Below, piece by piece: positions 9,860 through 64,000 of a stretch of 64,000 nucleotides of DNA. The translations under genes and the position numbers were made by a program. The notes beneath the pieces were generated by a model. It worked only from the letters and a program-made list of their open reading frames with translations, was not told where the DNA came from and ran no database searches. Every line of letters begins with the position of its first letter. Within the stretch, counting starts at the first letter, position 1. The stretch is from Mucor racemosus (Eukaryota; Mucoromycota; Mucoromycetes; Mucorales; Mucoraceae): contig JAPEHQ010000013.1 in the NCBI GenBank assembly GCA_027405735.1, positions 496,001-560,000 of the forward strand, written 5' to 3'.

Positions 9860-12800
9860 CTAATCTTTGTTTCTGCGAGCAATAGCTTTAGCACGATTAT
9901 CAGCAAACATAAGCTTGGTAACCTTTTCAATAGCGTAAGCAATACCGAAATCAAGAATCATGCAAAGTGTTAATTTATAACGGAAACTACCAGGGAATTG
10001 GACAAGCTTAAGTTGATCATTGACTTCAGGCCACATCTCAGTAGCACCGGCTAAAGCAACACCACCAACAGACATTAAACCATAATACAACGCCTTATTA
10101 TCTTGGATACGTTCGCGGAAAGGATATCCTTGATAATTAATAGCAAATGTAGATACTTGCATAGATAATTGAATGAGATAAACTGCACTGTTCAATAAAC
10201 TAGGCTCAAATTCTCCTTCCAAATCGACTTCCTTTGGTCTATGAAAAAGAAAGAGTTATTGATTATTCTAAAACAATTAATACCCAATTACTTACGGTTC
10301 GAATGATTTAGCAAGAGCATTGATATAAACTAAGGAAACAATGTGAATAGCAAATTGACCCAAAACGGACAAGATAATATAGGGGTTGAAAATGTTGGGT
10401 TGAGGACGTTCCTTGGATAACTTTTGGAGAGGTTTACCTCTGGAAATACAAAGGAAACAAACAGCCATCAACATACCAGAAATAGTTACTTGTAAATCAC
10501 CAAACTTAATACCATCTAAATACAATACAGATAAACTATAGGCAGAAATCAAACAATTCAAAGCTAAAATCTTGTACATTTGAATAGTAGCAACAAGAGT
10601 ACAACGACCTTGACGAATAATGTTGTTGATAGATGTGACATTACGCAACTTAGAAGTGAAAGGAGCAGCAACAGAGGCATCACCAAACTTAATAGTAGGA
10701 GGTTCTTCCATATCCATACCTTCCATCATCTTTTGAGTAGCTTCTTCAATCTTTTTCTTTTGTTCCATTTGACGTCTTTGAGCAGGTGTCAAGTTTTGGT
10801 TTTGTTGATTAGCAAGTTGAGCAGCAAATTCGGGATAGAGATGGGCAATAGCAGGAGGAGGAGGAGGAGGAGGTTGATTGAAACGAGCAGAAATACTCTT
10901 TTGTTGTTCATACATGGCCTTCATACGTTCAATACGTTGACGTTCAGCAATTTTTTGAAGATCTTCAGGTGTACCATCTAAAAGAGCAACACCAATGTGA
11001 GCTTGTTTCAAAGCACCAACATCATTGGTACCATCACCAGCCATCAATGTAGTGTAACCGAGGTCCTTCAAACCAGTTAAGAGGTATTCCTTCTGAGAAG
11101 GAGAAACACGAGCATAAACCCAAGTATGTTCAAGAATAATATTCATGTTTTCCTTGTGAAGCATGAATTGAGACATGGCAGAACCAGTTAAACAGAGATC
11201 ATACTTATCTAAAAGAGCTGTATCCAAAGATTCGGCAGGGTTTACTTCAAGACGATAGGTTTCATCAATACTATGGAAAACAACCTTATTATCCTTACGA
11301 CTTTCATCTCTATCTACAATCAAAACTTCACGCTCAACAATAGCGACTTCACGAGCGACGGCACAAGCTGTCAATGGGTTATCACCAGTGATCATGATAC
11401 AACGATGAGAAGATTCATTCAATTCCTTCAAAGCCTCAATAGCATCATCCTTAAGAGGACAGGTAAAGACGATGAAGCCAGCAAAAATTAGTTCAGATTC
11501 AACAGATTCACGAGCAAGATCATTGATTTGATTATTAGTCAAAGTGTTATCCAACATCTTGTAACCAAGAGCCAATACTCTACTACCCTTTCTAGTGAAA
11601 TGTCTATAAGCTTCAACGTAATTATCGGGAACTTTAGTGTACATTTGCTTGAGTGTTTCAGGGGCACCCTTAACAGCAATAAATGTTTTGGTACTCTTGA
11701 GAGAAGGATGCGACAAGGTAGAAACAGATGATTGACGTTTCAATGCAGAAGAAAATTGATAGCGACGACGAATTTGCAAAGTATGGCCACCCTTTTCACC
11801 CTTTGGGAAAACGATATCGTGAGGTCCCAATTCCCAATCAAGAGCCTTGAGTGTTTCCTTTTCCATGGGATCACCAACGATACCATCTTCAAGTTGAACC
11901 AAAGCATGAGCGCTGGATAAAACCCACTTGGTAGTATCAGGAACTTCGGTAGCTTTCAAAAGATCGGTATTTTCAGTATAAGCAACACCTTCAAAGACAA
12001 GATCTTCGCCAGTCAAGGTACCGGTCTTATCAAAACAACAGACATCAACACGACCAGCGTAAGGGATACGGAAGGGTTCAGTACAATAAATAGCATATTT
12101 TGAAAGAGCAACTAGACTACTGTTGACAGCCAAACTCAATTCCATAGGCAATTCGGGAGGAACAACAGATGTAATAATCAAAATACAATCTAACAAGAGC
12201 TTTGACTTTTTACGATCATTCTTGACACCCTCTTGCCAGACATAACCAGAGGCAGCAATGGCGAAAATAAGCAAAAAGAGAATAAACAATAAGGCTTCAA
12301 AGTTATTAGCAGATACACGTTCAGTAGAGAAGATCATGGTACGAACAAGTTCACCTTGAGAGGTACCAAAACCAGTACGAGCAACAACACAGACACAACC
12401 ATCATCTGGAGGTGCTTCATCTTTAGGAGTAGTTACCTGCAATACCTTAGTACCACCATAAAGTACATTTAATCTATCAGTAACATTCATATCAAATTCA
12501 TCATTAGGATCTCTAAGAGCGATAGATTCCTTTAACAAAGGAGTTGATTCACCAGAAAGCATAGCTTCATTTACAATACAAGAACCATCAGCAATTACCA
12601 AATCACAAGGAACACCTTGATCTTCCTTTGTACGAACAATTGAAACAACATCTCCAGGTAATAAATCATCACTTTGAATTTGAATCCATTTCTTTTCTCT
12701 CTTGACATAAACAGGATAAGGCTTTTGATTCATACCACGGAATTCACCAATAGTACGAAGACGTTGATAAACAACTGTACATTCAAATACAACCAACATG

Positions 12801-13719
12801 AAAAGAGTGAAAAGAGAATAATACCAATATTCATCTAAACACCAAAGACCAACACAGAAAATTTGAAATACAAAGAAAGGTGCAACTGCATGTTCTTTGA
12901 ATAATTCCATAAATGTAGGTAAAGGAATTTCGAACCTAGTTAAGAGTATGTTATTCAAACTTATCAGATCAGACAAAAATCATCTTTCTTACTTGTTTAA
13001 ACCATAAGCATGAGTGAGAGACTCAATTTCTTTTTGAGTAGTTAAACCCTTTGTGCTTTGATAGGAACCAACAGTGTTATTGAGATCAGAAGGATAGAGT
13101 AACTTTTGAAATTGCTTTTTATCAGAATTCCAAATAAACTTCTTTTGTTGAAATAAGAATGAAATGATGTCTTCAGAATTATCAATAGACTAATACAGTA
13201 AAATGTAAGTTTCCCTCTCAAAAATCCCTGTTTTGATTGTTCTCTTTTACCTTTGTATGCTCAAGAGCAACAAGTGTACCCTTTCCTTGATAACGGAAAG
13301 GTACAATCTTGATGATAGCTGCCTTTTTAACATCGGTTTCCTAATAGCCATTTGTAAGTATATATTTGGTAATATACACCTATTGTAATATCTTACCTTG
13401 ACACAAGTGAAAAGTGCCTGTACGTCAACACTCCATTGACATACCAAGAATGTCATGGCATGAAGAGTAATAATACTTCCAAGAGAAACAAATGTCCATT
13501 CTTCTGAACCAATATATGTATCATAGTGATTATAATAAACATAGATAAAAACAGGATAAAGCATACTGACAAAAGGCCAGACATACATGTGCCAACGTCT
13601 AGGCAAAGGTCTTAACAAAGCAGCCGAAGCCACCCGTTCAGACTCAACAAGAGTTTGCGTCCTAGTTTGATACGTTAATTACTACTTGTATATCCTAATC
13701 TGCTTAATTTTGCTTACAT
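9860..13719 (-). CDS. SPF1: P5A-type ATPase, SPF1/ATP13A1 family (ER transmembrane helix dislocase)
   Basis: Six exons: 13719-13718, 13661-13397, 13340-13251, 13189-12993, 12935-10296, 10238-9860; five introns of 55-61 bp, all GT-AG. The joined frame is 1190 aa, close to yeast Spf1 (about 1215). The start codon is itself split, AT in exon 1 and G in exon 2, giving MTQTLVESERVASAALLRPL. Visible P-type landmarks: SGES (about residue 312, actuator), the P5A signature PPELPMELSLAVN (about 444), the phosphorylated Asp in DKTGTLTGED (about 487), KGAPE (about 607), TGDN (about 701) and GDGTND (about 818). Pro-rich and Gln/Lys-rich insertions follow the P domain. P5A pumps reside in the ER membrane, where they remove mis-inserted transmembrane helices and affect sterol, manganese and glycosylation homeostasis (family knowledge). 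Exon 2 carries the conserved SEEWTFVSLGSIITLHA membrane region. Confidence 0.96.
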
Positions 13720-23147: not shown

Positions 23148-26100
23148 ATGAAGGATAACACTCGTATTCTTAATAACGAAAGTGGTTATGCCGCTAATGT
23201 CTTTGCTGAAAAGGAAAGCCAGATGCTCAAGGTTTGTGATAACTTGGAACAACTTGGTTTCCTTCCCAAGGAATTGGTCAAGAATGAGGTGCAATGGTTT
23301 TATAGGTAGGTTGCCATGACAACGATAGCGAAAATGCCCATTTTCGATCTCAGGTTATTAACACTGATTTCAAATCCATAGCAACCTTAACATTGATGAC
23401 TATTATTTCGCTTTGGAAAGTGTTGAAACTATCTCTAATCACATCATGTCATTGTATGGTGCCAAAATCTTGGCTTACACCAAGAATGAAAACGTTTTAG
23501 ATATCAATTTGCAAAAGGAAACCGAAGATTCTGCTGTTTATATTCATTCTTCTGAACCTGGTGTTTCTCAAATCTATGGTCCTCAACATGAAAGAGCTAT
23601 TGATGATAAATTTTTGGACAAGTCTACTCCCTCTGAAGCTTACCGCGTTGAATCTTATCGCTCTAGCTCCAATGGTGGTGGTATGACTTCTCAACTTCGT
23701 AGTTACTTTGTTACTAAATGTGAATTTGAAAATGATACTCCCACTCCTGAACAAGAAACTGATATCAAGCAAGTCGCTGATAAGAGTTTCTTACGTAAGG
23801 CTACTGAGTTTACTTTAAATATCTATGAAGATGTCATGCAAAATGTGCTTCAACGTACTGGCCCTGTCATTGAAATGTACGAAGTTAAGGGTTCTCGTGA
23901 GCGTCGTCTTATCATCGGTTATCGTCAAAGAAGTACCAAGGGGTTCTTCTCTGCTGTCAGTGATTTGTATCATTACTATGATTTGTACTCTACTCGTAAA
24001 TATGTTGGTAAGTTGTATATAAAATGGGAAAAAAGTGTAATAGTGTATTGATTTGAAAAATAGAGCAATTCTCCAACGGTGTTACTATCATTGGTTTATA
24101 CTTACATCCCGTTCCTCAATCCAAGGCTGCTCCTATCGAGCATTCTATTTATCAAGTTATGAAGGAAGCTTCTCTTTTATACTGTCTTCCCAAGACTCCT
24201 TTACAACAATACTTCCAAACTAATAAGCTTTCTGTTCAAGAAATGGTTTATGGTTATGTTGGCTGGATCTTTGCCCAACACTTTTTGAATCGTTTGGGTA
24301 AAGAATATTTGAGTTTAACCTCTATTTTGGATCGTTCCAACCCTGTTCATGAAGAAGTTTTGAGCAAGTTGAAGAAGCGTCTCCGTCAAGATACCTTTAC
24401 TCGTGAATATATCCTTGATATCATGAAGAGATACCCCGAATTACTCAAGGTTTTGTATGCTAACTTTGCTACTACTCATTATGTCAATCAACGTGAAGCT
24501 TCTTTGCAACCTACTATTTCTTATCAACGTTTGACCAACATGGAAGTATTGTCTGTCGATGATATTAGCAAGCGTATCAAGACTGTTACTACCAATGCTC
24601 ATGAACAATTAGTTTTTGAGTCTTTCTTGACTTTCAACAAGCATGTTCTCAAGACCAATTTCTATCAAACCACCAAGGTAGCACTTTCTTTCCGTATGGA
24701 TCCTAGTTTCTTGCCTGAAATCGAATATCCTACTACTCCTTATGGTTTGTTCTTGGTTGTCGGTTCTGAATTCCGTGGTTTCCATATTCGTTTCAGCGAT
24801 GTTGCTCGTGGTGGTATCCGTATGATTCGTTCTCGTAACAGAGAAGCTTATTCTATCAATTTGCGTACCTTGTTTGATGAAAATTACAACTTGGCCAACA
24901 CTCAACATCGTAAAAACAAAGATATTCCTGAAGGTGGATCTAAGGGTACCATTTTATTGGATGTTGATCAACAAGATAAGCCTTTGGTTGCCTTTGAAAA
25001 GTATGTTGATGCCATGCTTGATTTATTGATTGCTGGTGAAACCATTGGTATCAAGGATAAGTTGGTTGATTTAACCGAAAAGCCTGAAATCCTCTTCTTT
25101 GGTCCTGATGAGGGTACTGCTGAATACATGGATTGGGCTTCTCAACATGCTCGTAGACGTGGTGCTAGTTTCTGGAAGGCCTTCACTACTGGTAAGAGTC
25201 AATCTCTTGGTGGTATTCCTCATGATTTGTATGGTATGACCACTCGCTCTGTTCATCAATATGCTTTGGGTATTTACCGCAAGTTGGGTTTGAACGAAGA
25301 GGATATTACCAAGGTTCAAACTGGTGGTCCTGATGGTGATTTGGGTTCCAATGAAATCAAGATTTCCAAGGATAAGACTATTGCTATTGTCGATGGCTCC
25401 GGTGTTCTTTACGATTCCGTTGGTATTGATCGTACTGAATTGACTCGTTTAGCTAATGCTCGTATCATGATCAGTAACTTTGATATTACCAAGCTTTCTC
25501 CCAATGGTTTCCGTGTACTTGTAGATGAAGATAATGTCAAATTGCCCGATGGTACTATTGTTGAAAATGGTCTTACTTTCCGTAATACTTTCCACACCAA
25601 CCCTCTTGCTCTTTCTCGTATCCTCATTCCTTGTGGTGGTCGTCCTGAATCAATTGGTTTGGATAATGTCAACCAAGTCATTGAATCTGGCCTTTACAAA
25701 TACATTGTTGAAGGTGCTAATTTGTTCATTACTCAAGAAGCTCGTCTTCGTCTTGAAAACGCTGGTATTGTTCTTTTCAAGGATGCTTCTGCTAATAAGG
25801 GTGGTGTAACCTCTTCTTCTTTGGAAGTTTTGGCTGCTCTCGCTTTTGATGATGCCGATTTTGAAGAAAACATGTGTGTCAAGAATGGTGTCACTCCCGC
25901 TTTCTATGAAGCTTATGTCAAGGAAGTTCAAAACATCATTGCACGTAACGCTAACCTTGAATTTGAAGGTCTTTGGGAAGCTAGCCAGAAGACAGGTACT
26001 CCCATTTCTATTCTTTCTGATGAACTATCTATTGCTATTGTCAAGTTATCTGAACAACTTCAATCTACTGGTCTTTGGGATAATGTTACATTAAAGAACA

Positions 26101-26288
26101 CTGTATTGAAGCAAGCATTCCCTCAATGTTTATTAGAAAAGTTGGGTATGGAGACTCTTTTACAACGTGTTCCTGAAAGTTACGTCAAAGCTATCTTTGG
26201 TGCTACTCTTGCTTCTCAATTCGTTTACAAATACGGTGCTCATCCTGACAACTTTGCTTTCTTTGAATTCATGCGTCAAAACTACTAA
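23148..26288 (+). CDS. GDH2: NAD-specific glutamate dehydrogenase, large (about 115 kDa) fungal type
   Basis: Three exons: 23148-23305, 23382-24007, 24064-26288; 1002 aa. Converts glutamate plus NAD to 2-oxoglutarate, NADH and ammonium, the catabolic direction, linking amino-acid use to the TCA cycle. Residues 1-52 come from exon 1 (MKDNTRILNNESGYAANVF). The catalytic region shows VARGGIR (about 505-511), PEGGSKG with the catalytic-type Lys (about 550-556), GPDEGTAEYMDW (about 608-619), and the dinucleotide fold GGPDGDLGSNEI (about 682-693). Yeast Gdh2 is about 1092 aa; the difference is at the N-terminus. Codons are strongly biased (GGT, AAG, CGT, GTT), unlike the neighbours, suggesting high expression. 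A TATA box and CCATGG/GATA cluster lie upstream. Confidence 0.97.
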
Positions 26289-33429: not shown

Positions 33430-36400
33430 ATGTCAAACGAAGGTACATCTAACGTTGACATTCAACAACTTCTAGCAAAGTTAGATCAACAACAACAATT
33501 AATTGAAAGATTACAAATACAACAGAATAATCAACAATTAGCATTTGAAAGCAAAAATGAATTCTCACAATATGTTAAACAACAAAAGTTAAAAAACTTG
33601 GACATGCCTAAATATCAAATCAACAATAGCTTGAGAGTATATTTCTTTGAATTTGAACAGCAAGCCAAATACTTAGGAATCACAGACATGGATTTATGCA
33701 CAGCTACTTTATGTAAATTTTTACCTGATAACATGAAAAATTGGATCATACATCTCCCAAATGCTATCAAAAGCAAATGGACAACACTAACACAAAATTT
33801 ATTGCAATATTTCGGTAAAAGCTTAAACCTTGAACAAAGACAAGGAATAAACAAGCTACAAGCATTAAAACAAAAACGAAATGAATCCATAGCTCAACAC
33901 ACTACTAACTGGATTAATACTTATCATATCATTCCTCAAGGAAGTAACATCATTTCAGTAACTGATTTGAGAGATTGGTATGTACAATCACTATATGACA
34001 TTGGTTTGGTCGCTACTCTTACTACGTCAATTTTACTTCAAGGCGAACGTGGTACTCCGGCATCTTTAGATTACATCACAAAACAAGCAATGAAAATCGG
34101 TTCCAATTTAGCTGTTTCTAACTATGGAAAAAGTTCATCTTATGATGAACAAGGACCAGATTACACAAAGGATGACCCAATGGACATTGATCATATGAAT
34201 CAAAAGAAAAAATTTGATAATAAAAAACAATTCTATAAGAAAAACAAATTCAAGAAAGGCAAAAACAAATTTCAGAACAACAAGATCAATACCAATAATA
34301 ATGAACGACCTAAACTTTATGACAAATTCGGTAATCCAGTATGTGGATATTGCAACGGCAGACACCGCAATTATGAATGCAATCAAAACAACAGATCATT
34401 ACACCAACTTGAAACCAATGAAGCGTCGTCAGAAGATATTATTGAATTACAACATATTGATGCAGGATATATAAATCACATAAAAAACGGAAACTCGGTT
34501 ACACCAACAACTGTCATAAAAATGGGATCTAATCAAATTTTAGCTTTATGGGATACTGGTGCTGCAATCACTGCTATCAATTATGAACTTATTAACAAAC
34601 TTAATTTGAATATGGACACTTCAGAAACCATTCAATACGTTGACATCAACAATAATAACAAAACAACATTAGGAATAGTATACATTCAATTGTTTAATAC
34701 TAAAGTTAAAGTTCATGTCATTAAGGATTTAGCTAAACAAATGGTCATCGGATTTGACACTATGACCAAGTGGAACACTATCATTGAAACAAACAAAAAC
34801 AGAATAAAGTTAACAATCAATGGAAAACAATATTATATACAGTATAGTAAAGTTCAACATCAACAAATCATGTGCACTGATAGTCAGCAAAAACAACTCA
34901 ATAACATTTTAAAAAATTTTCAAACAATATTTCTGTCAGGAGATCAAAAACCTTCTATTACCAACAAGATGGAATGTCACATTGACACAGGTGATCATGA
35001 GCCAATTTACTCACCTCCAAGATACTATCATCCGAAAATTCAAAAGCAAATTGATGAAAAATTTAAAGAATTAATAAAAAATGGAATAGTAACTAAAGTT
35101 GCATTCTCGGAATGGGGTTCACCTGTTACTGCTGTCACAAAATCAGACAAATCTATTAGAATTTGTGGTAATTACATCAAATTAAATGCTATAACTAAAA
35201 CTATCAAATATCCATATGTCAATCTTCATTATGCATTGCAATCTCTGGGAAAAGCAAAAATTTTTTCAAAAATCGATCTGATCTCAGGATATTATCAAAT
35301 TCCGATAGCGGAGTGTGATAAATCAAAGTCCGCTCTAGTTACACAGACGTCAATTTACGTTTTCAATTCTATGGGAATGGGAATGAAGAACTCAAGTGCA
35401 TATTTTCAATCATTAATGGACAAAGTTTTAGGTGAAATGCGTTATGTATCAGCTATTGCATATCAAGATGACGTAATTTTATATTCAGACAATTTTGATC
35501 AACATTTACATCATTTGAAGACATTGTTATATAAATTAAAAGAAGCAAACTTATCAATCAACATCAAAAAATGTCAATTCGCTATGAAACAAGTCAAATT
35601 TTTAGGTTTTATAGTTTCGGATCAAGGAATTCAAGCCGACCCAGACAAAGTTCGACCTATTACACAACTACCTCCACCAAAAGATATAAAAGAGTTGGAA
35701 AGATTTCTTGGAATGACAGGCGTATATCAAAAATTTATCAAGCAATATCAAGTAATCATTGAACCATTGAGAAGATTAAAAATGAAAAATCAAACATTTA
35801 GCTGGAAAGAAGAACAACAAGAAGCATTCACAAAAATCAAGCAACAATTGTCAAATTTACCAAATTTGATACAACCTGATTTTGATAAACAATTTGAACT
35901 ACATACAGATGCAGCAAATACGGCAGGCATAGCTGTCATACTATGTCAAAGATATGAAGGACATCCATACCCTTTATCATTCGCATCAAGATCTTTATCA
36001 AAACATGAAAAAAACTACTCTATTCGTGAACTGGAAGCATTAGCAATTATATTCGGTATCAAGAAATTTCGTATATATTTAGAATGTAATCAATTCATTA
36101 TATATACTGATCATTCTTCGTTACAATGGATACTTAATACCAATGAGGATAAGCAACCAAGGCTATTCAGATGGTGTTTATTTTTACAAGCGTTCGATTT
36201 CATAGTAAAATATGTTCCAGGCAAGAAAAATAATGCTGCAGATGCTCTATCAAGGTCAACCATATTCAACATCGAACTTAAGACAAGATTACAATCTATC
36301 AATTGGCAACTTGAACAAGAAAAAGATGATAAATTACAAGAATACAAAACATCTAACAACAAATCATTTATTGTATCTAATGGTATTATATTCAAAGTAA

Positions 36401-37512
36401 TGCAAAGACAACAAAATATATTCAGCAACAAAATAAGCAAAGTAGTACCATCTCAATTGACACAAACAGTAATCAAGGAATTTCACGACAAGCAATTTGC
36501 GGGACACAGTGAAATTAACAAAACAATAAATGCAATCAGCAAACAATTCTGGTGGGAAAATATGAAGCAAGAAGTTGAAGATTATATCAAAAAATGTATT
36601 ACTTGTCAAAAAGTCAAAGGTGATCGATCATATCAACACAATACATCAAGTACTGCAGGAGAAAAACCTTTTCAAAAAATAGCAATAGATTATTTTGGAC
36701 CATTGCCAATAACAGAAAAAGGAAATGTTCACATATTAGTTATCATTGACACTTTCACGAAATATGTTGAAATTTATCCAATGAAATCAATACTCACAAG
36801 TGAATTAGCAAAAGTATTGTACTACAACTTTATCTTAAGGCACGGCATACCAGACGAAATAATTTCAGATAATGGAGCACCATTCAACAGTGAATTTATG
36901 CAACAATTAAATCAATATCTAGATATAAAAATATCATTTACACCACCTAATCATCCATCATCAAACGGGATTGTTGAAAGATACATGAAAACTCTGAGAC
37001 AAATGATTTTGGTATATGCACAAAAAACCAATGTAGTCAAACTATGGGATACAAACATCAGATTAATTCGTTTTGTATACAACAACATGATTCATCAAAG
37101 TACTGGTTTTACACCTTTTGAACTTGTATATGGTAGAACAGCAAAATCAATAAATCAGATTATTACTCAAGAAAATAAAGACATACCTTTATACAAAGGA
37201 CAATCTCACACACCACAATCCAAATTTGCATCACAATTAAAAGAAAATCTAGAACAAGCTTTCGAAATAGTATACAACAATTTAACTACAAATGAACACT
37301 ATGAATACAATAATGAATTCAAAGTTAATGATAAAGTATTATTATTTAATACATCAAGATCATCGAAAGTCAGACCTAGAAAACTTCAACAAAATTGGAT
37401 AGGACCAATGATAATATTTAAAGTACTATCAAAAACTAGATACAACTTGAAATATTACTACAAACGTTACAATAACATACACATATCATTAATCAAGAAA
37501 TATTACGATTAA
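33430..37512 (+). CDS. Ty3/gypsy Gag-Pol polyprotein, single frame
   Basis: 1360 aa from ATG 33430. Order: Gag/capsid (about 1-290, Gln- and Asn-rich), a zinc knuckle CGYCNGRHRNYEC (about 305-317, one residue shorter than canonical CX2CX4HX4C), aspartic protease DTGAA (about 375), reverse transcriptase with KIDLISGYYQIPI and YQDD (about 678-681), RNase H (Asp at about 827 in HTDAANTAG, ELEALAI, YTDHSSLQ), and integrase with an HHCC finger (HDKQFAGH...CITC) and catalytic D1087, D1147, E1183 (DD35E). The protease-RT-RNaseH-integrase order defines Ty3/gypsy. Gag and Pol are fused with no frameshift or stop, and no chromodomain is visible at the C-terminus (ends ISLIKKYYD), so target choice may differ from chromoviruses. 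No inactivating lesion seen. Confidence 0.95.
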   Translation: MSNEGTSNVDIQQLLAKLDQQQQLIERLQIQQNNQQLAFESKNEFSQYVKQQKLKNLDMPKYQINNSLRVYFFEFEQQAKYLGITDMDLCTATLCKFLPDNMKNWIIHLPNAIKSKWTTLTQNLLQYFGKSLNLEQRQGINKLQALKQKRNESIAQHTTNWINTYHIIPQGSNIISVTDLRDWYVQSLYDIGLVATLTTSILLQGERGTPASLDYITKQAMKIGSNLAVSNYGKSSSYDEQGPDYTKDDPMDIDHMNQKKKFDNKKQFYKKNKFKKGKNKFQNNKINTNNNERPKLYDKFGNPVCGYCNGRHRNYECNQNNRSLHQLETNEASSEDIIELQHIDAGYINHIKNGNSVTPTTVIKMGSNQILALWDTGAAITAINYELINKLNLNMDTSETIQYVDINNNNKTTLGIVYIQLFNTKVKVHVIKDLAKQMVIGFDTMTKWNTIIETNKNRIKLTINGKQYYIQYSKVQHQQIMCTDSQQKQLNNILKNFQTIFLSGDQKPSITNKMECHIDTGDHEPIYSPPRYYHPKIQKQIDEKFKELIKNGIVTKVAFSEWGSPVTAVTKSDKSIRICGNYIKLNAITKTIKYPYVNLHYALQSLGKAKIFSKIDLISGYYQIPIAECDKSKSALVTQTSIYVFNSMGMGMKNSSAYFQSLMDKVLGEMRYVSAIAYQDDVILYSDNFDQHLHHLKTLLYKLKEANLSINIKKCQFAMKQVKFLGFIVSDQGIQADPDKVRPITQLPPPKDIKELERFLGMTGVYQKFIKQYQVIIEPLRRLKMKNQTFSWKEEQQEAFTKIKQQLSNLPNLIQPDFDKQFELHTDAANTAGIAVILCQRYEGHPYPLSFASRSLSKHEKNYSIRELEALAIIFGIKKFRIYLECNQFIIYTDHSSLQWILNTNEDKQPRLFRWCLFLQAFDFIVKYVPGKKNNAADALSRSTIFNIELKTRLQSINWQLEQEKDDKLQEYKTSNNKSFIVSNGIIFKVMQRQQNIFSNKISKVVPSQLTQTVIKEFHDKQFAGHSEINKTINAISKQFWWENMKQEVEDYIKKCITCQKVKGDRSYQHNTSSTAGEKPFQKIAIDYFGPLPITEKGNVHILVIIDTFTKYVEIYPMKSILTSELAKVLYYNFILRHGIPDEIISDNGAPFNSEFMQQLNQYLDIKISFTPPNHPSSNGIVERYMKTLRQMILVYAQKTNVVKLWDTNIRLIRFVYNNMIHQSTGFTPFELVYGRTAKSINQIITQENKDIPLYKGQSHTPQSKFASQLKENLEQAFEIVYNNLTTNEHYEYNNEFKVNDKVLLFNTSRSSKVRPRKLQQNWIGPMIIFKVLSKTRYNLKYYYKRYNNIHISLIKKYYD

Positions 37513-44104: not shown

Positions 44105-46847
44105 TTAAATACCAAGTGATATACCAAAATCGTTACCAAAAGATAATCTGGGTAATCTAGGTGGTGCACAATCATCTTCAACTGTTTGACTATCATCCTT
44201 GATTTCACTATCCTTACTAAAGCTACTACTAGTACTACTACTATTATTATTATTACTACTGTTCAAAGCAGCCAAGGACTTTATATTATTTGGTAATGCT
44301 GGTAATGGAGGTGGAGAAGGAGATCTTATGCCATCTTCTCTGTCAATATAGTCTTCCTCATCACTATCATCTATGTACAGTTTTGTCAGACGTCTAGTTG
44401 CTTTCAAATTAGGGTCTACAGTGGGAGGAAGAGCAGAAGGAGGAGGTCCAAAAGGAGAAACAGCAGGGTTGGTGGGTATGGGAGGTAGTTGAGCATAAGC
44501 GTATCTATTATTAGGTGGTGGTGGTGGGTAATCGAAACTGCCTAAACTGCTACTACAGAAACTACTATGCAGTAATGATTGAGCATCAGGATCTACAGTG
44601 GAAGAAGCTCTTCCTCTAAAAGTGTTTGGAGATATCATGGATGGACCCAACTGTAAAGAATCATTTGTTAATGATGAGATGGTAGATAATGCGATACGTC
44701 TTTGAAGTGCATATGTTGTGCGAGGCGAAAATAATGTGGATGATGCTACTGTGTTCATGGCGGGAGACATGATGGAAGCGGAATCCGGAGGAAACATTTC
44801 TTCTACTGCTTGAACTCCTTCTCCATGTGGTCTCAATGCAATAGTGGCAGGTAACCCAGGTGCTGGACTGAAAACAGGAGATGGAGGTCTAGAATGAAGG
44901 GTTGGTTGACTCTTATTAGTCGAGAGAGTAGCAGAAGAGCTTAAACTAGGTGCATTATGACTACTGGAAATAGATGTTTCCGAATAAATTGATTGCAAAT
45001 CTTCGTTGCTAATATTATCCATATTTGTAATAGCTGCACTTTCAAGCGGTCTCATGTTTTTTCTAATTTGTTGCTGATGTTGCATGCGATCTAAAGTTGG
45101 AAGAACATCCGAGCTTGGTGATTCCTGTGCTACAGGTGGTAAAGGAAGTGTGGTTTGTGGTGGTGGTCTTAAAGAAGGCATAGATTTAAATATATTCACT
45201 TCTTTTCCGTTTGCTAAGTCAACATTGATTGGTTGTAGTTGCTTTCTTCTCTTCATTGTTGGTGTAGTTGTTCTAGGACGTTCCTCAGGTTGTCTTTCAG
45301 CATCCAAGAGTAATGATTCTTCAGATGCAGTACTAAGATCAAATGCAGAAGCAAACTTCTTTAATTGTCTCTGGTTGTTATTAATATTAAATGTAGATGA
45401 TGATTCAGGTGTGGGTGATAAAACTCGTCGATTAATGATGTTGCTTGTATTTGTCATGTAGGTGGAAATTGCTGGTGGTGGTAATGGAGTAGGTGAAAAA
45501 CTTCGAGGAGGATTATTTTTAGTTCCAAACATCTTTGGAGTAACCCTTCCACTTCTTGGATAATTTTCTTGTTCATATTCTTCATCACTTAGTACAGGCA
45601 TCATGCTTGTATCCCGAAGAATACTGAAACTATCATCATTTGGAGTACTCGTATCATCATCAGTGAGACGATGTGTTGAATTACGGGATTCTAGTTTATA
45701 TGACAAGAACTCTGATCTAGCTGTTTCTTCAAATGCATACTTCATCATCAAGTTACTACTTTTTTTATCTAACTGGATTTGAGATGGTTCTTTATGTGGT
45801 ATAGATGCGACGATGATGGGTAATTTAATCTTGATTTCTTCGTATTTCATGCCGAATTGAAAAGTTATTTCGATTTGATGATAGATAGAAACTAGAGGAG
45901 AGTCCAATGTGTAGCTAAGATAGGGATGTAATCCATGTCGAATCAAACAAGGTCGTTTCCAAGTCGAAGCTGCTGCATCAGGTATGTGAATAAGAGCAGG
46001 TATTGTTCTTTTGATGTATTTTATATGGGTATCTTTAAAATGCGCAGAATCAGCAATTCTTTTGTCCAAATCAAAGATATGAGAATCTCTGTTGCTTGCT
46101 GTCAAGTCTGATTCTGATTTTGAGAGGGATTGGCGTCTGTAATAAGTAAAGAAGAAAAAAGTTAGTGCAATGAAAGCAAAGATGTATACACACTATAATG
46201 AATTACCTGTAGAGTTCAATTTGAACAATTCGAGTTCTAATAGATTGTACCTGTTTTTGATTTGCAATACTGACATATTTGATGGCCATTGGTATATACT
46301 CTTGCTCTATGCAAATGATTTGCGGGGCATCAATCTCATAATGAAATTTACCAGGTATAGTTCTTTGGTATAATTTTGTTTCAATCAGTGGAGATAATTC
46401 CTTGTAAGGCAGTAAATGTCTTTTCAATACGATTGGATATTCTGCAGTCAATGTTCTTGCAATACCTGTCGATATAGATACTACTACTTTGTAATGGATT
46501 GTTGCTCTTTTAGCCAATAAACTTCTGGGATAAATGTTTGGTATGTCCAATTCCCAAGGTATGATATGATCCCCTGCCGGTAAGTTTGTTTTGCCAAATA
46601 ATGGCACTTTTAACTTGGGCAATAATGGACATGTTGTTTCAATATTGTATGGTTGTTTTAATGTAATATTGCTGAATCCTTTGAATTTGATTGACATTGT
46701 ACGAATTTTAGTGGGCCTGATCAACGTAAATTTTACATGCCCCTTTAAGACTTTTGATTGCTCAGTTGAATGTAATTTTGCTGGTCCAATGAAATCAAGA
46801 TACCCTTCTTTTGGTTCAATTTGTAATGATTTAAAATCATCCTTCAT
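44105..46847 (-). CDS. Alpha-arrestin family protein (arrestin-related trafficking adaptor-like)
   Basis: Two exons: 46847-46207 and 46136-44105, 890 aa. Start at the first ATG (MKDDFKSLQIEPKEGYLDFI); the frame extends farther up only through a TTG. The arrestin N domain covers about 10-165 (VLKGHVKFTLIRPTKIRTMSIKF, AGDHIIPWELDIPN), the C domain about 180-330 (IEQEYIPMAIKYVSIANQKQVQS, then after the intron HIKYIKRTIPALIHIPD and LPIIVASIP). The remaining about 550 residues are disordered, Ser/Pro-rich, with a short acidic segment DDSDEEDYIDRED. Such proteins usually recruit HECT ubiquitin ligases to plasma-membrane transporters through PPxY; I see Pro-rich patches (YPPPPP, LPPPAISTY) but no exact PPxY, so the ligase link may differ. 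Confidence 0.88.
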
Positions 46848-47050
46848 GATGATAATTTTTTGTTTTAATAAATGCAAAATAATGATGGAAGTGAAAAGAA
46901 CAAGAAGAACAAGAACAAGAACAAGAAAAAAGAAGCTTGTTTAAAAATATTACTGTTTTATATAGTGTTACTTGAAAAGTGGAGTATTAATGGTTGCACT
47001 CGACTTGTAAAACATTAATTCTCTTTTTTATTCTTTTATATAAAAATATA
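46848..47050. promoter_or_regulatory. Divergent promoter between arrestin and ALG12-glutaredoxin genes
   Basis: 203 bp between the two start codons. The arrestin side is GAACAAGAACAAG-rich; the ALG12 side has TTTTATATAG and TTTATATAAAAAT. Shared regulation is possible but not shown. Confidence 0.45.
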
Positions 47051-48871
47051 ATGAAACTCGTGTTAGGGTGCTTATTTGCACTGATAGTTTCAGAAGCTTA
47101 TTTTGCCCCATTCACAAAGGTTGAAGAAAGCTTCAATTTACAGGCAACTTTTGATATTATCAACCAAGTAGATCAATTTGATCATGTTCAATTTCCTGGA
47201 GTTGTTCCGCGTACTTTTGTAGGCGCTTCTTTATTGAGTTTATTTGCATGGCCACTAATTCAAATCATTCCATTATCTCCTATTGACCAACAAGTATTAG
47301 TTCGTGTTGTATTATCTACCTTTGTCATTTTATCTTTGGGTAAATTCGCCTTTGGCGTCAAATCCTTGTTCGGCTCAATTACTGCAAATTTAACCATTAT
47401 GCTTATAATTTGTCAGTTCCACCTCGTGTTTTGGTCCTCTCGTACTTTGCCAAATACGTTAGCATTGCCATGGGTTATGCTGGGTCTATCTCATTGGCTG
47501 CATAGCCTCTCTCAATCTAGTGGTCGTACATATCATCTGAATTGGATGATCCGGTACCTAACATTTACCGGCATAGTCTTTAGATTTGAAGTAGGCATTT
47601 TGTTGGTCATCTTGTTGGCAAGTGAATATTTCCATGCTACAATCACTCTATCTGCTATATTGAAACAATTGGTTATTACTTCGATTATTAGTCTGTTGAT
47701 CACTGTACCACTGGATTCATACTTCTGGAATACATGGCTTTGGCCAGAAGGAATGGTATTTTACTTTAATGCAATCCTCAACAAGAGTTCAGAGTGGGGC
47801 ACCTTACCTTTTCATGCTTATTTTACCTCATTTTTGCCTCGTTTACTTCTCGTGTCGTATCCATTAGCATGCTTGGCTCTTGTAACAAATGGACGTGTTC
47901 GTCGCATGTTGATGCCAATGATTATTTATGTTGCATTATTCTCTTTTATGCCACACAAAGAATGGAGATTTATAATTTACACTGTACCTGTATTCACTGC
48001 TGCTGCTGCTACTTGTATTTCAAATTCTATTCATGCCGCATCTCGTTCTTGGCTACATTGTATTTCACTTTTAGTCATGTTGGTAGGTGCTGCTGCTTCA
48101 TTTGCTATTGCTATTACAATGTTTCAAATCTCCCGTTTGAATTATCCAGGAGGTGAGGCCTTGTTTACTCTACATGAAATTGAAAAGAACACACCCTATG
48201 TAAATGTTCATATGGATGCAGATACTGCCATGACAGGAGCATCTCTTTATGGACAATCCAATCCTAATTGGTCTTATTCCAAGAACGAGACTCACAAAGT
48301 TCAAGATGATTTCTTGGATGCTCGTTATACACATATTATCACAGCAAACCCTGAAAAATTTGACACAGCTTTATTTGAAACTATTGATGAAACATATGGA
48401 TTGGATAAAGTAAAAGTCAAATCATTACATGAATATAAAAAGTCAATTCAGAATCATGATATATCACCCATTGAATTCAGAATGTCACCTAAATTATATA
48501 CACTTCGGCTGATCAGCCCGCAAAAAACCTGGATTCAAACCACGTTACGCAAATATCCTGTTGTACTATATAGTAAAAGCTATTGGTAAATTTGTTATAT
48601 TTTAAAATGGTAATACAAAAATCTGATTTCTGTTTTATATAGTCCTTATTGTATGGCAGCAAAACAACTCATTTCAAAATATTGCAAGTATATAGAAATT
48701 ATCGAAGTGGATCGTCAAAGAAATGGAAATGAAATTCGAGATGCTTTGATTGAATTGACAGGTCAGCGTACATTTCCAAATCTATTTAAAAATGGTAAAA
48801 GTTTGGGTGGATATGATCGTCTATCAGGATTAGACAGAGAAGGAAAATTAGATGGACTTTGTGATTCCTAA
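47051..48871 (+). CDS. ALG12: ALG12-type mannosyltransferase fused to a C-terminal glutaredoxin
   Basis: Two exons: 47051-48585 and 48643-48871, 587 aa. Residues 1-about 490 are ALG12 (GT22), which adds the alpha-1,6 mannose to Man7GlcNAc2-PP-dolichol on the lumenal side of the ER: FTKVEESFNLQATFDI, FPGVVPRTF, many membrane segments, and HKEWRFIIY, ending in SPKLYTL like ALG12 of other species. The frame then continues into a glutaredoxin: KYPVVLYSKSYCPYC (active site CPYC, 512-515), IEVDRQRNGNEIRDAL, TFPNLFKNGKSLGG (cis-Pro loop and GSH-binding GG), GKLDGL. The codon of the first active-site Cys is split by the 57-bp intron (TG|T). If the intron is retained, translation ends W-stop just before the CPYC. 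A separate glutaredoxin could also start at M478 (110 aa). Confidence 0.9.
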
Positions 48872-51165
48872 AAAATATAGGTTGATTCTCTGTGAGACCA
48901 TAATAAAATGTATAACAGTTTTATGATTATTTGAGGGACCCTCATCTTTATTTGATAACGGTTATGCTATCTATACATATATGTGTGTAAGCATATGTTT
49001 ACGCATAAGTGATATTTTATCTGTATTATCTATATGACATCTTTTTTTTTTTTTTTTTGAACTTTTTTTTTGAACTTTTTTTTTACTGATGAGATGTTTA
49101 TACAACTGTGCTACATCAATTAATAAAAATGTTGTATGATAAACATGCAACCAATGAAAATTAGATTGATAATTATATCACTCACCATTCAAAACATAAT
49201 GTCAAAACTATACTTTGAGGGTAAATTTCCTTTATCTAATTATCTATGATCAAGATTTTACTATTATTAGTGATTTTAGCAAAAAGTTATGCAATCATAA
49301 CCTGCATTTATTTTGACATGTAAAAAAGGGCTTAATAAATAAATAACATTATAGCTTTTATTTTAGCATAATACGTAAGTCTTCCCTACATTTATTATGT
49401 AATACATATATAAATGTATCATATGCCTTTATTAAACAAACATCTATTATTAGTATTATTGAATTGAAAATGCTATCCACGTTGTAAGCCGTAAATTGAT
49501 TTTAATGTTACACTACGTTACAAGGGGCTACTTCTTTTTCTTCTTTTTCATAAATCAGCTTGGTTCTTCTGAAATCATGCATATATTTTATTATATGCTG
49601 CAAAGTAAAACACGAAAAGCTATCATTAGAAAGTAGTACAATAGTAATAGATTAATTAATTGCATTTTTTTCTTGGTATAGTTTTCTTTTTATAACATTG
49701 GGGCTGTACGATATATTCTGGAACTATACTTCCGAAAGTCTATTTAATATATAAAAATGTCAAAACTGTGCAAAAAAAGCTACAACTCAACCGGAATAAC
49801 TTTTACAAATATGTTAAATGCTAAAGCTCTAAATCAGGCTATTTCAGTCATGTATCGTTCATATAGTGCTAGACTGCTGAGAATTATAAAAATGATGCTA
49901 TAGTAGAGATCAAGCACATTTAATTCTAGAACAAGATGTTTTGGTTATTTTTGCTTGCAAATAAGGCAATCGTTTGAAGATTGTTGTTGTTGTTGTTGTT
50001 TTGTGTGCTTTATGTGCGTTATGATCAAATCAAGTAAAATCATAAAACATATTGATCTTTTACACGATTTTACGGAAAGCTTCCACAGATTAGTAATGAT
50101 AAGCGTTTAATTTCCTCAGGCATTAAAATACCGTAAAAAATGTGTACCTATACTTTTACCCTGGCTTTTCAAAGGCATGAAATTATAAATTTACACAGAA
50201 AGTTATATGCTATGATGTTATATAAATATTCATGAATTCAACATCGGTATATTTGCCTGTTTTTCTTTATAACCTTTGCCGTATGCATTTAAGGTTAGAA
50301 ATACATTTTCATATCATATTTATCGCAACATGGCAAACAACAAAAAGACCGACGTTTTTCATTCAAAAGACTGTAGATTACCGAGGGTTACTTAAGGAAG
50401 ATGAAAAATCTGCCTTTTTGTTCTAATCTTTTGTCTTTTTTTTCTACTTGTTTTTTCTACTTATTTTTGTTTACGAATTTTTTTGAGATTTGAGATATAC
50501 TATGCCATTTCTTATTAGAATCATATGATATTTTGCTGTTCTAGTGGTTATGGAAAAGGTTACAGTCATCTTACGACGAATATTGAACTATGGAACCTTG
50601 TCCGCTCGATGTAAGTAAGTGTGTATCCCTGCTGTACCTGAATCTATAAAGATCCAAAATCCTTTGATTTATTTTTCCTTGGCAATACTGTTTCACATTT
50701 AAACTATTTAATAAAGGCTCTGTTCCTTCCTTGTGTAAAGCTTTTATGCTTTTCTTCCATTTTCACACACATCATAATCAATAGATTTCATGAGACTTTT
50801 ATTTTATCCTCCTTATCTTTGAATAACCTCCTTTTCTTTTAAAAACACCAACATGAAGATCGCTTTTACATGGATTCTATCTATTCAAACATGTTAAATA
50901 TCACATCTTGATAACAGCAAACCTCACACTAAAAAGCTGCACGATGAAGAATGTGTTTATTTCTTCCTTTGTATAACATCTTCAGGGTTCCAAAAGAAGC
51001 CAAAACCTTATCCAAGGGAAATCTTTCATCAGTTATTATATATTCATTTTTGTATCCGTGTTATTGTAAAACAAATAATCCAATTGTAATCCTATTCAAC
51101 ATTGTCCCGGCTACAAATTTTATTAAATGAAGCAAGGATGGTTACTATAGTGATTGTTTCATAAA
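48872..51165. other. Long AT-rich intergenic stretch
   Basis: No gene found. T-runs at 49041-49083, a GTT microsatellite at 49981-50001, C/T-rich tracts at 50410-50470. No splice-flanked coding segment convinced me. Confidence 0.5.
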
Positions 51166-62911: not shown

Positions 62912-64000
62912 TTAAATCGTATCTTCTGCTAATAATCTTTCACGCTTCTTCTTGGACTTCTCCTCGCGTGTAGCAATCTTTCTTGTATTAATTGATTTAG
63001 GAGCTTGCTTTCCCTTACCATTAGATTGCGTATTAGCATCTACTTTCGCCCAATAATGTTTAATAACATCAGGAGAATCAAATGATGCTGGTGGTTCCCA
63101 AGAATCATGATCTTCTGTGAAATTCTTCCATCTTACTAAATATTCGTAATTGGGTGGAGTACCTCTATGCTTTATAATAGCTTGTACTTCATACACATCT
63201 GAGTTATCTTCCTTTGCATCATTCGTGCTGATCAACTTGATCTGTTGTGTAGGTACATCTCTAGCTAAGAATGTATCAGTTTTATCAGTAAGAATATAGC
63301 TTCCATTTTTAGTTATTCCATGTATATAAAATGGGCCTTCATAGTTAGGATCAGTTTTCCTATTCTTATTTTCTATATTCTTGATCATTACAGTAGGTCC
63401 AATTGGATAAGGTTTCTCCAAGATTCTATGTCTCTTTCTAAAGTAACTACTATTCTTATCCTGTGTCTTTAGTATTTGGTCTCTAATTGCTGGAACAATA
63501 ATTCTATCAATTAAATCGAGCTTCTTTTTAAATGCTTCCACATCGATTTCTCTTTCATGAAGTGTAGGTTTATCTCCTCGATAATCCTTAAATTCATTAG
63601 GTGCTCTATGAAACATTACCATGAATGGCATCATCCCATGCAGTCTAGATCTATGTACATTTAAACTTAATGCTGTTCCATTAAGGTACAAATCCCAATC
63701 TTTGCTACGACCTTCCAACATCTTCATAATTATTGTTTTTGCAGACTTTACTGCAGCTTCACAGCAACTATTACCTTGGGGCGTAAATGGTAAACTTGCT
63801 CTATTCTCAACCTCAGCATGTTTAAGTATCTTTTCAAGTAATTTATTATGGAATTCTGCACCTCGATCATGACCAACGATACGTGGGTAGCCGAACAATG
63901 AAAAGATAGATACCAATTCCTTTGCAACAGTAGTAGCTGATTTATCTGGAATTGCACGTAAGATAATAAATCTCGAGAATAGATCTAGCACTACTAATAT
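62912..64000 (-). CDS. Ty3/gypsy integrase with chromodomain, 5' truncated by the window
   Basis: Open to the window edge (363 codons visible). Integrase catalytic residues: Asp in VVLDLFSRF at the edge, Asp in GHDRGAEF, Glu in GNSCCEAAVK; the zinc finger lies outside. Then a polypeptide-binding region (PYPIGPTVMIKNIENKNRK, DPNYEGPFYIHG) and a chromodomain (about residues 268-315: YEVQAIIKHRG, YEYLVRWKNFTEDHDSWEP) followed by a Lys/Arg-rich tail ending AEDTI. In chromoviruses the chromodomain directs integration to heterochromatin marked by histone methylation (family knowledge). No stop or frameshift in the visible part, so the element may be active. Confidence 0.9.
   Translation of the reverse strand: MLVVLDLFSRFIILRAIPDKSATTVAKELVSIFSLFGYPRIVGHDRGAEFHNKLLEKILKHAEVENRASLPFTPQGNSCCEAAVKSAKTIIMKMLEGRSKDWDLYLNGTALSLNVHRSRLHGMMPFMVMFHRAPNEFKDYRGDKPTLHEREIDVEAFKKKLDLIDRIIVPAIRDQILKTQDKNSSYFRKRHRILEKPYPIGPTVMIKNIENKNRKTDPNYEGPFYIHGITKNGSYILTDKTDTFLARDVPTQQIKLISTNDAKEDNSDVYEVQAIIKHRGTPPNYEYLVRWKNFTEDHDSWEPPASFDSPDVIKHYWAKVDANTQSNGKGKQAPKSINTRKIATREEKSKKKRERLLAEDTI

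Follow-up and report, generated by a model that had tools for sequence, protein, structure and literature searches.

A predicted in-frame fusion of the ALG12 mannosyltransferase to a CPYC glutaredoxin in Mucor racemosus and its relatives in Mucorales

Introduction

Can one gene of Mucor racemosus encode both a mannosyltransferase of the ER membrane and a glutaredoxin, and if so, on which side of the membrane would the redox domain lie and what could it do there? This question is raised by a locus on the forward strand of the window, by which we mean the whole stretch of 64,000 nucleotides analysed here, in which an ALG12 frame runs on into a glutaredoxin carrying a CPYC active site. Thiol-redox proteins located beside enzymes of N-glycan metabolism are known from the ER: PMC7563561 describes Ost3/Ost6 (MAGT1/TUSC3) in OST, Sep15 with UGGT, and PDI, TXNDC11 and ERp46 with the EDEMs. 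Glutaredoxins are also known from this part of the cell, since yeast Grx6 and Grx7 are presented in PMC7912550 as glutaredoxins of the ER and Golgi, in the early secretory pathway.

Results

The fusion gene (47051..48871, + strand) consists of two exons and encodes 587 residues. Splicing of exon 1 (47051-48585) to exon 2 (48643-48871, +) gives 587 codons in a single open frame, and a Pfam scan of the spliced protein placed Glyco_transf_22 at residues 6-359 and Glutaredoxin at 504-564, both above their cut-offs. A complete ALG12 (residues 1-488; 47051..48514, +) is directly joined to a complete CPYC glutaredoxin (residues 489-587). The first helix and strand of the latter lie in exon 1 (48515..48585, +), from residue 489 to the first two bases of codon 512; a 57-bp GT-AG intron of phase 2 (48586..48642, +) then interrupts this codon, which specifies C512, the first active-site Cys, and exon 2 carries the remainder, beginning with the third base of this codon and running to the stop. 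Both the in-frame fusion and the splitting of the active-site Cys codon by an intron, as claimed in the preliminary description of the locus, are therefore borne out. In the genomic DNA the ALG12 frame stays open, without a stop, through the first helix and strand of the glutaredoxin. From 48300 to the end of exon 2 the sequence has neither AATAAA nor ATTAAA, and AATAAA is present downstream of the fusion (48902..48907, +).

The gene lies divergent from one for an arrestin N-terminal domain protein (46203-46850, -; just over the cut-off), the two starts being about 200 bp apart. Elsewhere, the window contains a P-type ATPase frame (10292-12976, -), an NAD-glutamate dehydrogenase-like frame (24159-26288, +) and a 1360-aa retroelement frame (33430-37512, +), preceded by a CAA repeat, with a gag-type protease (below cut-off), reverse transcriptase, RNase H and integrase. 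An integrase core and chromodomain frame (62912-63991, -) is part of a chromodomain retroelement that runs off the window.

We then asked how widely this architecture occurs. Two protein searches, one with region 440-587 (26 matches) and one with region 300-500 (91 matches), together gave proteins P0001-P0093; both depend on shared words of 5 residues, and the first missed 10 fused proteins found with the second, the reverse being true of 2. Both Pfam domains are present in 28 of the 43 Mucorales-type proteins P0001-P0043 (P0001-P0017, P0020, P0031, P0034-P0037 and P0039-P0043); of the others, 14 end with YSK[ST]YW and 1 lacks the motif. The search of related fungal proteomes for GT22 and glutaredoxin domains in one protein, proposed when the locus was first described, thus had 28 positive results. 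All but one of these 28 are named, and they represent 23 genera, which we take to belong without exception to Mucorales: Parasitella, Mucor, Pilaira, Choanephora, Blakeslea, Cokeromyces, Helicostylum, Thamnidium, Gilbertella, Mycotypha, Backusella, Fennellomyces, Gongronella, Benjaminiella, Pilobolus, Rhizopus, Apophysomyces, Radiomyces, Circinella, Zychaea, Halteromyces, Chlamydoabsidia and Phascolomyces. Mucor and Parasitella supply the closest of the named proteins. Phycomyces, Lichtheimia, Umbelopsis and Mortierella were not among the named matches of these word-based searches, which does not imply that they lack the fusion. None of the 50 ALG12-like proteins from elsewhere (P0044-P0093) has the YSK[ST]YW motif or a glutaredoxin domain. 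A search with the glutaredoxin alone returned 2 proteins among 4 candidates, both without ALG12, which we read as exon-2 frames. Judged from these protein sequences, the fusion is real and conserved across Mucorales.

The appended domain appears to be under constraint. Over 27 fused rows of the alignment, which are not independent (Mucor, Parasitella and Thamnidium each occur twice), mean pairwise identity across the glutaredoxin (504-582) was 60.5%, compared with 57.4% for the membrane core (166-357) and 53.4% for the ALG12 C-terminal domain (358-487); it was 40.6% over the last part of that domain (440-487) and 50.2% at 488-503. By this sequence measure, conservation of the glutaredoxin matches that of the membrane core.

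Many of the public models are automatic, and several deserve comment. P0027, from Mucor mucedo, is the sole Mucorales-type model without the start of the glutaredoxin, ending with LIQPQNNLD; either the fusion has been lost there or the gene has been given another splice model. In 12 of the 28 fused models (P0002, P0006, P0007, P0012, P0016, P0017, P0020, P0031, P0037, P0040, P0042 and P0043) the protein begins at the equivalent of M166 (47546 in the window) and so is without the catalytic first lumenal loop, which may reflect either a gene-prediction quirk or a real shorter transcript. P0010 comes from a contig no longer than 1,823 bp; its frame of 579 aa reads through the junction and ends with QIGRAHV, the translation of a common Illumina adapter. 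It looks like a cDNA contig, in which case it would be direct evidence of a spliced fused transcript in a relative; the alternative is an intronless genomic contig.

The first 488 residues resemble ALG12 more closely than they do other GT22 enzymes. The GT22 domain is unambiguous (PF03901, E 3.4e-39, 135.7 bits against a cut-off of 23.8), the acidic motif of the first lumenal loop is present as TKVEESFN at 22-29, as it is in the full-length relatives, and the R/K-x-P-type motif of a later lumenal loop is represented by R306 and P313, invariant across 19 rows. Both motifs are among the features named in PMC6801728. Unfused ALG12 proteins terminate at the alignment column where the glutaredoxin begins, in line with the earlier claim that the ALG12 C-terminus is intact ahead of the join, and known ALG12 proteins such as the chicken GT22 alpha-1,6-mannosyltransferase (PDB 9s6t) stop where the glutaredoxin starts here. 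By homology, this part is predicted to be the alpha-1,6-mannosyltransferase that converts Man7 to Man8. In a 53.2-Mb genome of 54 contigs, a search with the ALG12 part scored 3 candidates and gave one match, the fusion locus itself, a search that is insensitive to distant GT22 genes, as it brought up neither ALG9 nor the GPI mannosyltransferases.

The glutaredoxin part has a complete fold, including the CPYC active site, the cis-Pro loop and the GG-x-D region. In the structure model of an orthologue (pLDDT 90.4) both folds are complete and adjoining, a helix (490-501) and a strand (504-508) open the glutaredoxin, and the structural alignment to glutaredoxins starts at about residue 489. The best NCBIfam family is GRX_euk (TIGR02180), for which the two orthologues covered by the scan scored narrowly below the cut-off of 87.25 (P0003, 83.3 bits; P0035, 81.9 bits). 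Fold, CPYC, cis-Pro loop and GG-x-D are shared with the class I CPYC glutaredoxins (human Grx2, 2fls; yeast Grx1/2; wheat Grx, 5zvl), from which the domain differs in being carried on a membrane glycosyltransferase, in having Phe before the loop proline, in an extra Cys pair and in its predicted location in the ER lumen. In class I glutaredoxins Val precedes the loop proline, forming a Thr-Val-cisPro loop; this residue is Phe556 in 27/27 fused rows, whereas the stand-alone paralogues have Val-Pro (TVP).

Does this domain still act as a redox catalyst? The substitution by Phe in every fused row would fit a folding or protein-binding module devoid of redox catalysis, as would the changes in the active site itself: the second Cys (C515; 48650..48652, +), present in 25/27 fused rows, is replaced by Ser in Cokeromyces and Benjaminiella (P0009 and P0031), giving CPYS and turning a dithiol into a monothiol site, and the motif of Apophysomyces is CSYC. 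However, the nucleophilic first Cys, Lys509, Pro557 and Asp570 are each found in 27/27 fused rows, and reactions with glutathione mixed disulfides require the first active-site Cys only. We consider a non-catalytic module quite unlikely, and favour a glutathione-dependent redox activity, predicted from the conserved residues, for the appended domain.

The side of the membrane faced by the CPYC, which the preliminary description had left to a topology prediction, is predicted to be the ER lumen. In the GT-C topology model of PMC6801728, ALG12 has 11 membrane helices and a lumenal C-terminus, and a motif of the HKEWR kind is placed in a lumenal loop. Here, HKEWR (302-306) is followed in the structure model by two long helices (305-330 and 334-364), which return the chain to the lumenal side. 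A count of loop charges on the model was uninformative, with 0 to 2 K+R per loop. The fusion proteins also carry two extra Cys: C526 (48683..48685, +), conserved in 26/27 fused rows, and its proposed partner C585 (48860..48862, +), near the C-terminus, where 25/26 rows have a C-terminal Cys. Both are kept in 25 rows and both are missing in 1 (Rhizopus arrhizus P0035), one row being cut by the adapter; the chance that a single loss of each would coincide is 1 in 26. None of the five stand-alone CPYC paralogues has a Cys at either place. This pattern, which rests on a single double loss, is suggestive of a structural C526-C585 disulfide, which would fit an oxidising compartment. Because the topology model, the path of the helices and the pattern of the Cys pair point the same way, our preferred reading is a lumenal glutaredoxin that contains a structural disulfide; the domain probably lies in the ER lumen.

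A second glutaredoxin, soluble and cytosolic, could instead be supplied by an internal transcript or start at the end of the ALG12 frame, and a separate product starting at M478 (48482..48484, +) had indeed been proposed. This Met lies just ahead of the glutaredoxin in the window and its product would be as long as an ordinary glutaredoxin, but it is poorly kept: Met occupies the position in 10/27 fused rows, and 9/27 have no Met at all between 465 and 494. Moreover, the genome holds five other CPYC genes, at least four of them showing no sign of a leader, and the C526/C585 pair is unlike these stand-alone paralogues. Since the Met is not conserved, we reject an M478 glutaredoxin as a general feature of the fusion, and regard a two-product gene as very unlikely.

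The preliminary description had also read the intron as a switch, with retention giving ALG12 alone and splicing giving the fusion. The unspliced frame does stop at once, and the same stop position is seen in the 14 unspliced public frames, all ending at the same residue (YSK[ST]YW), which makes the position and phase of the intron look conserved among the relatives, as far as intron positions can be deduced from protein ends; one public model, P0022 from Mucor lusitanicus CBS 277.49, ends at the intron stop. Nevertheless, any intron of phase 2 that opens with a GTAA donor reads xxG-TAA when left unspliced, so that the stop needs no regulatory reason. Of the 14 stop frames, 13 are unnamed, save one jgi and one Apophysomyces model, and most are unspliced predictions of the six-frame style (source lgn), uninformative on transcripts. 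Nor would the unspliced product be ALG12 alone, because residues 489-512, the 24 residues of the first helix and strand of the glutaredoxin, would remain as a tail.

An intron in these codons is also ordinary in this genome. It has five stand-alone CPYC glutaredoxin genes (L002, L003, L007, L009 and L011), and in three of these (L007, L009 and L011) the Pro codon of CPYC is split by a phase-1 intron (TGY C|CN), which lies 2 nt downstream of the position of the phase-2 intron of the fusion; in L002 and L003 the CPYC codons are uninterrupted. L009, spliced in silico by script, gives a complete glutaredoxin, and for L007 and L011 the inter-exon DNA was inspected by eye. The likeliest origin of the fusion's intron is that it came with the glutaredoxin partner, with the 2-nt offset possibly due to intron sliding; the alternative is an independent gain, and joint inheritance by itself leaves the offset unaccounted for. 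With the stop explained by phase and donor and the paralogue introns lying 2 nt away, we reject a splicing switch as the main reading of the locus, and hold it very doubtful that regulated retention sets a ratio of ALG12-like product to fusion that matters to the cell.

Finally, a merger of two adjacent genes by annotation or assembly, of which automatic models are capable and for which P0027, without its glutaredoxin, might be quoted, is scarcely credible and was rejected, since the genomic frame is open through the join here and in the 28 fused and 14 unspliced public frames, neither AATAAA nor ATTAAA occurs from 48300 to the end of exon 2, and both parts are constrained.

Discussion

We consider it highly probable that the locus encodes a single fused polypeptide. 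That this polypeptide is, as a whole, a bifunctional ER membrane protein, in which ALG12 tethers a lumenal CPYC glutaredoxin to N-glycan assembly, is in our judgement likely. The ALG12 part would add the alpha-1,6-linked mannose to the lipid-linked oligosaccharide, from Man7 to Man8, with Dol-P-Man as the donor. The glutaredoxin (489-587), appended at the lumenal C-terminus, would be held at the lumenal face of the membrane, where, with the glutathione of the ER lumen, it could make or resolve disulfides as well as mixed disulfides between proteins and glutathione. Its targets would be proteins near the machinery of glycan assembly and quality control. The ALG12 part itself offers few candidates: positions with Cys in a majority of rows are 7 (8/14), 121 (15/15) and 299 (14/27) only, and in the model they sit at or beside membrane helices, which makes a regulatory disulfide within ALG12 less likely than an action on neighbouring proteins.

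A bolder proposal, unlikely on present evidence, is that the glutaredoxin forms a redox-sensitive gate, reading the glutathione balance of the ER and tuning the addition of alpha-1,6-mannose by way of mixed disulfides with ALG12 partners or the assembly complex, in replacement of the Grx6/7 type. The later ERAD glycan signal depends on the alpha-1,6-mannose branch. Among the 13 PF00462 matches of the genome, the best candidates, with L002 taken without its N-terminal exon, there is no clear separate lumenal glutaredoxin resembling Grx6/7. If such a gate were true, a single polypeptide would link oxidative load with the quality control of glycans in Mucorales.

How does the fusion compare with known systems? 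It would share an ER or Golgi lumenal location with yeast Grx6/Grx7 (PMC7912550), its own being predicted. Grx6/Grx7 are monothiol according to the title of a reference in that source, whereas the window encodes CPYC and the fusion would be anchored by ALG12 itself. With Ost3/Ost6, Sep15, PDI, TXNDC11 and ERp46 it shares the placing of a thiol-redox protein beside an ER N-glycan enzyme, but these (PMC7563561) are separate subunits or partners of the thioredoxin type, while here an enzyme that assembles the lipid-linked oligosaccharide carries a glutaredoxin in its own chain; the OST subunits of the Ost3/Ost6 type are a functional parallel only. Neither 'ALG12' nor 'glutaredoxin' occurs in the main text of PMC7563561, and PMC2679010 has no occurrence of mannosyl or glycosyl. 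A literature search by titles and the starts of abstracts, with supplements and most subscription journals outside its range, found no description of an ALG12-glutaredoxin fusion. As far as this search shows, the architecture is new and undescribed, and is built of known domains.

For annotation, public models that are cut at the intron stop or start at the M166 equivalent deserve a check. For biology, the fusion would extend to glycan assembly the pattern by which redox proteins are found beside glycan enzymes. To our knowledge, the role of glutathione and glutaredoxins in the ER lumen is unsettled. The fusion, kept across many genera of one fungal order, may offer a natural handle on it, as the partner sets the location of the glutaredoxin, glycan analysis can report on the product of that partner, and the domain could be removed by ending the protein at residue 488.
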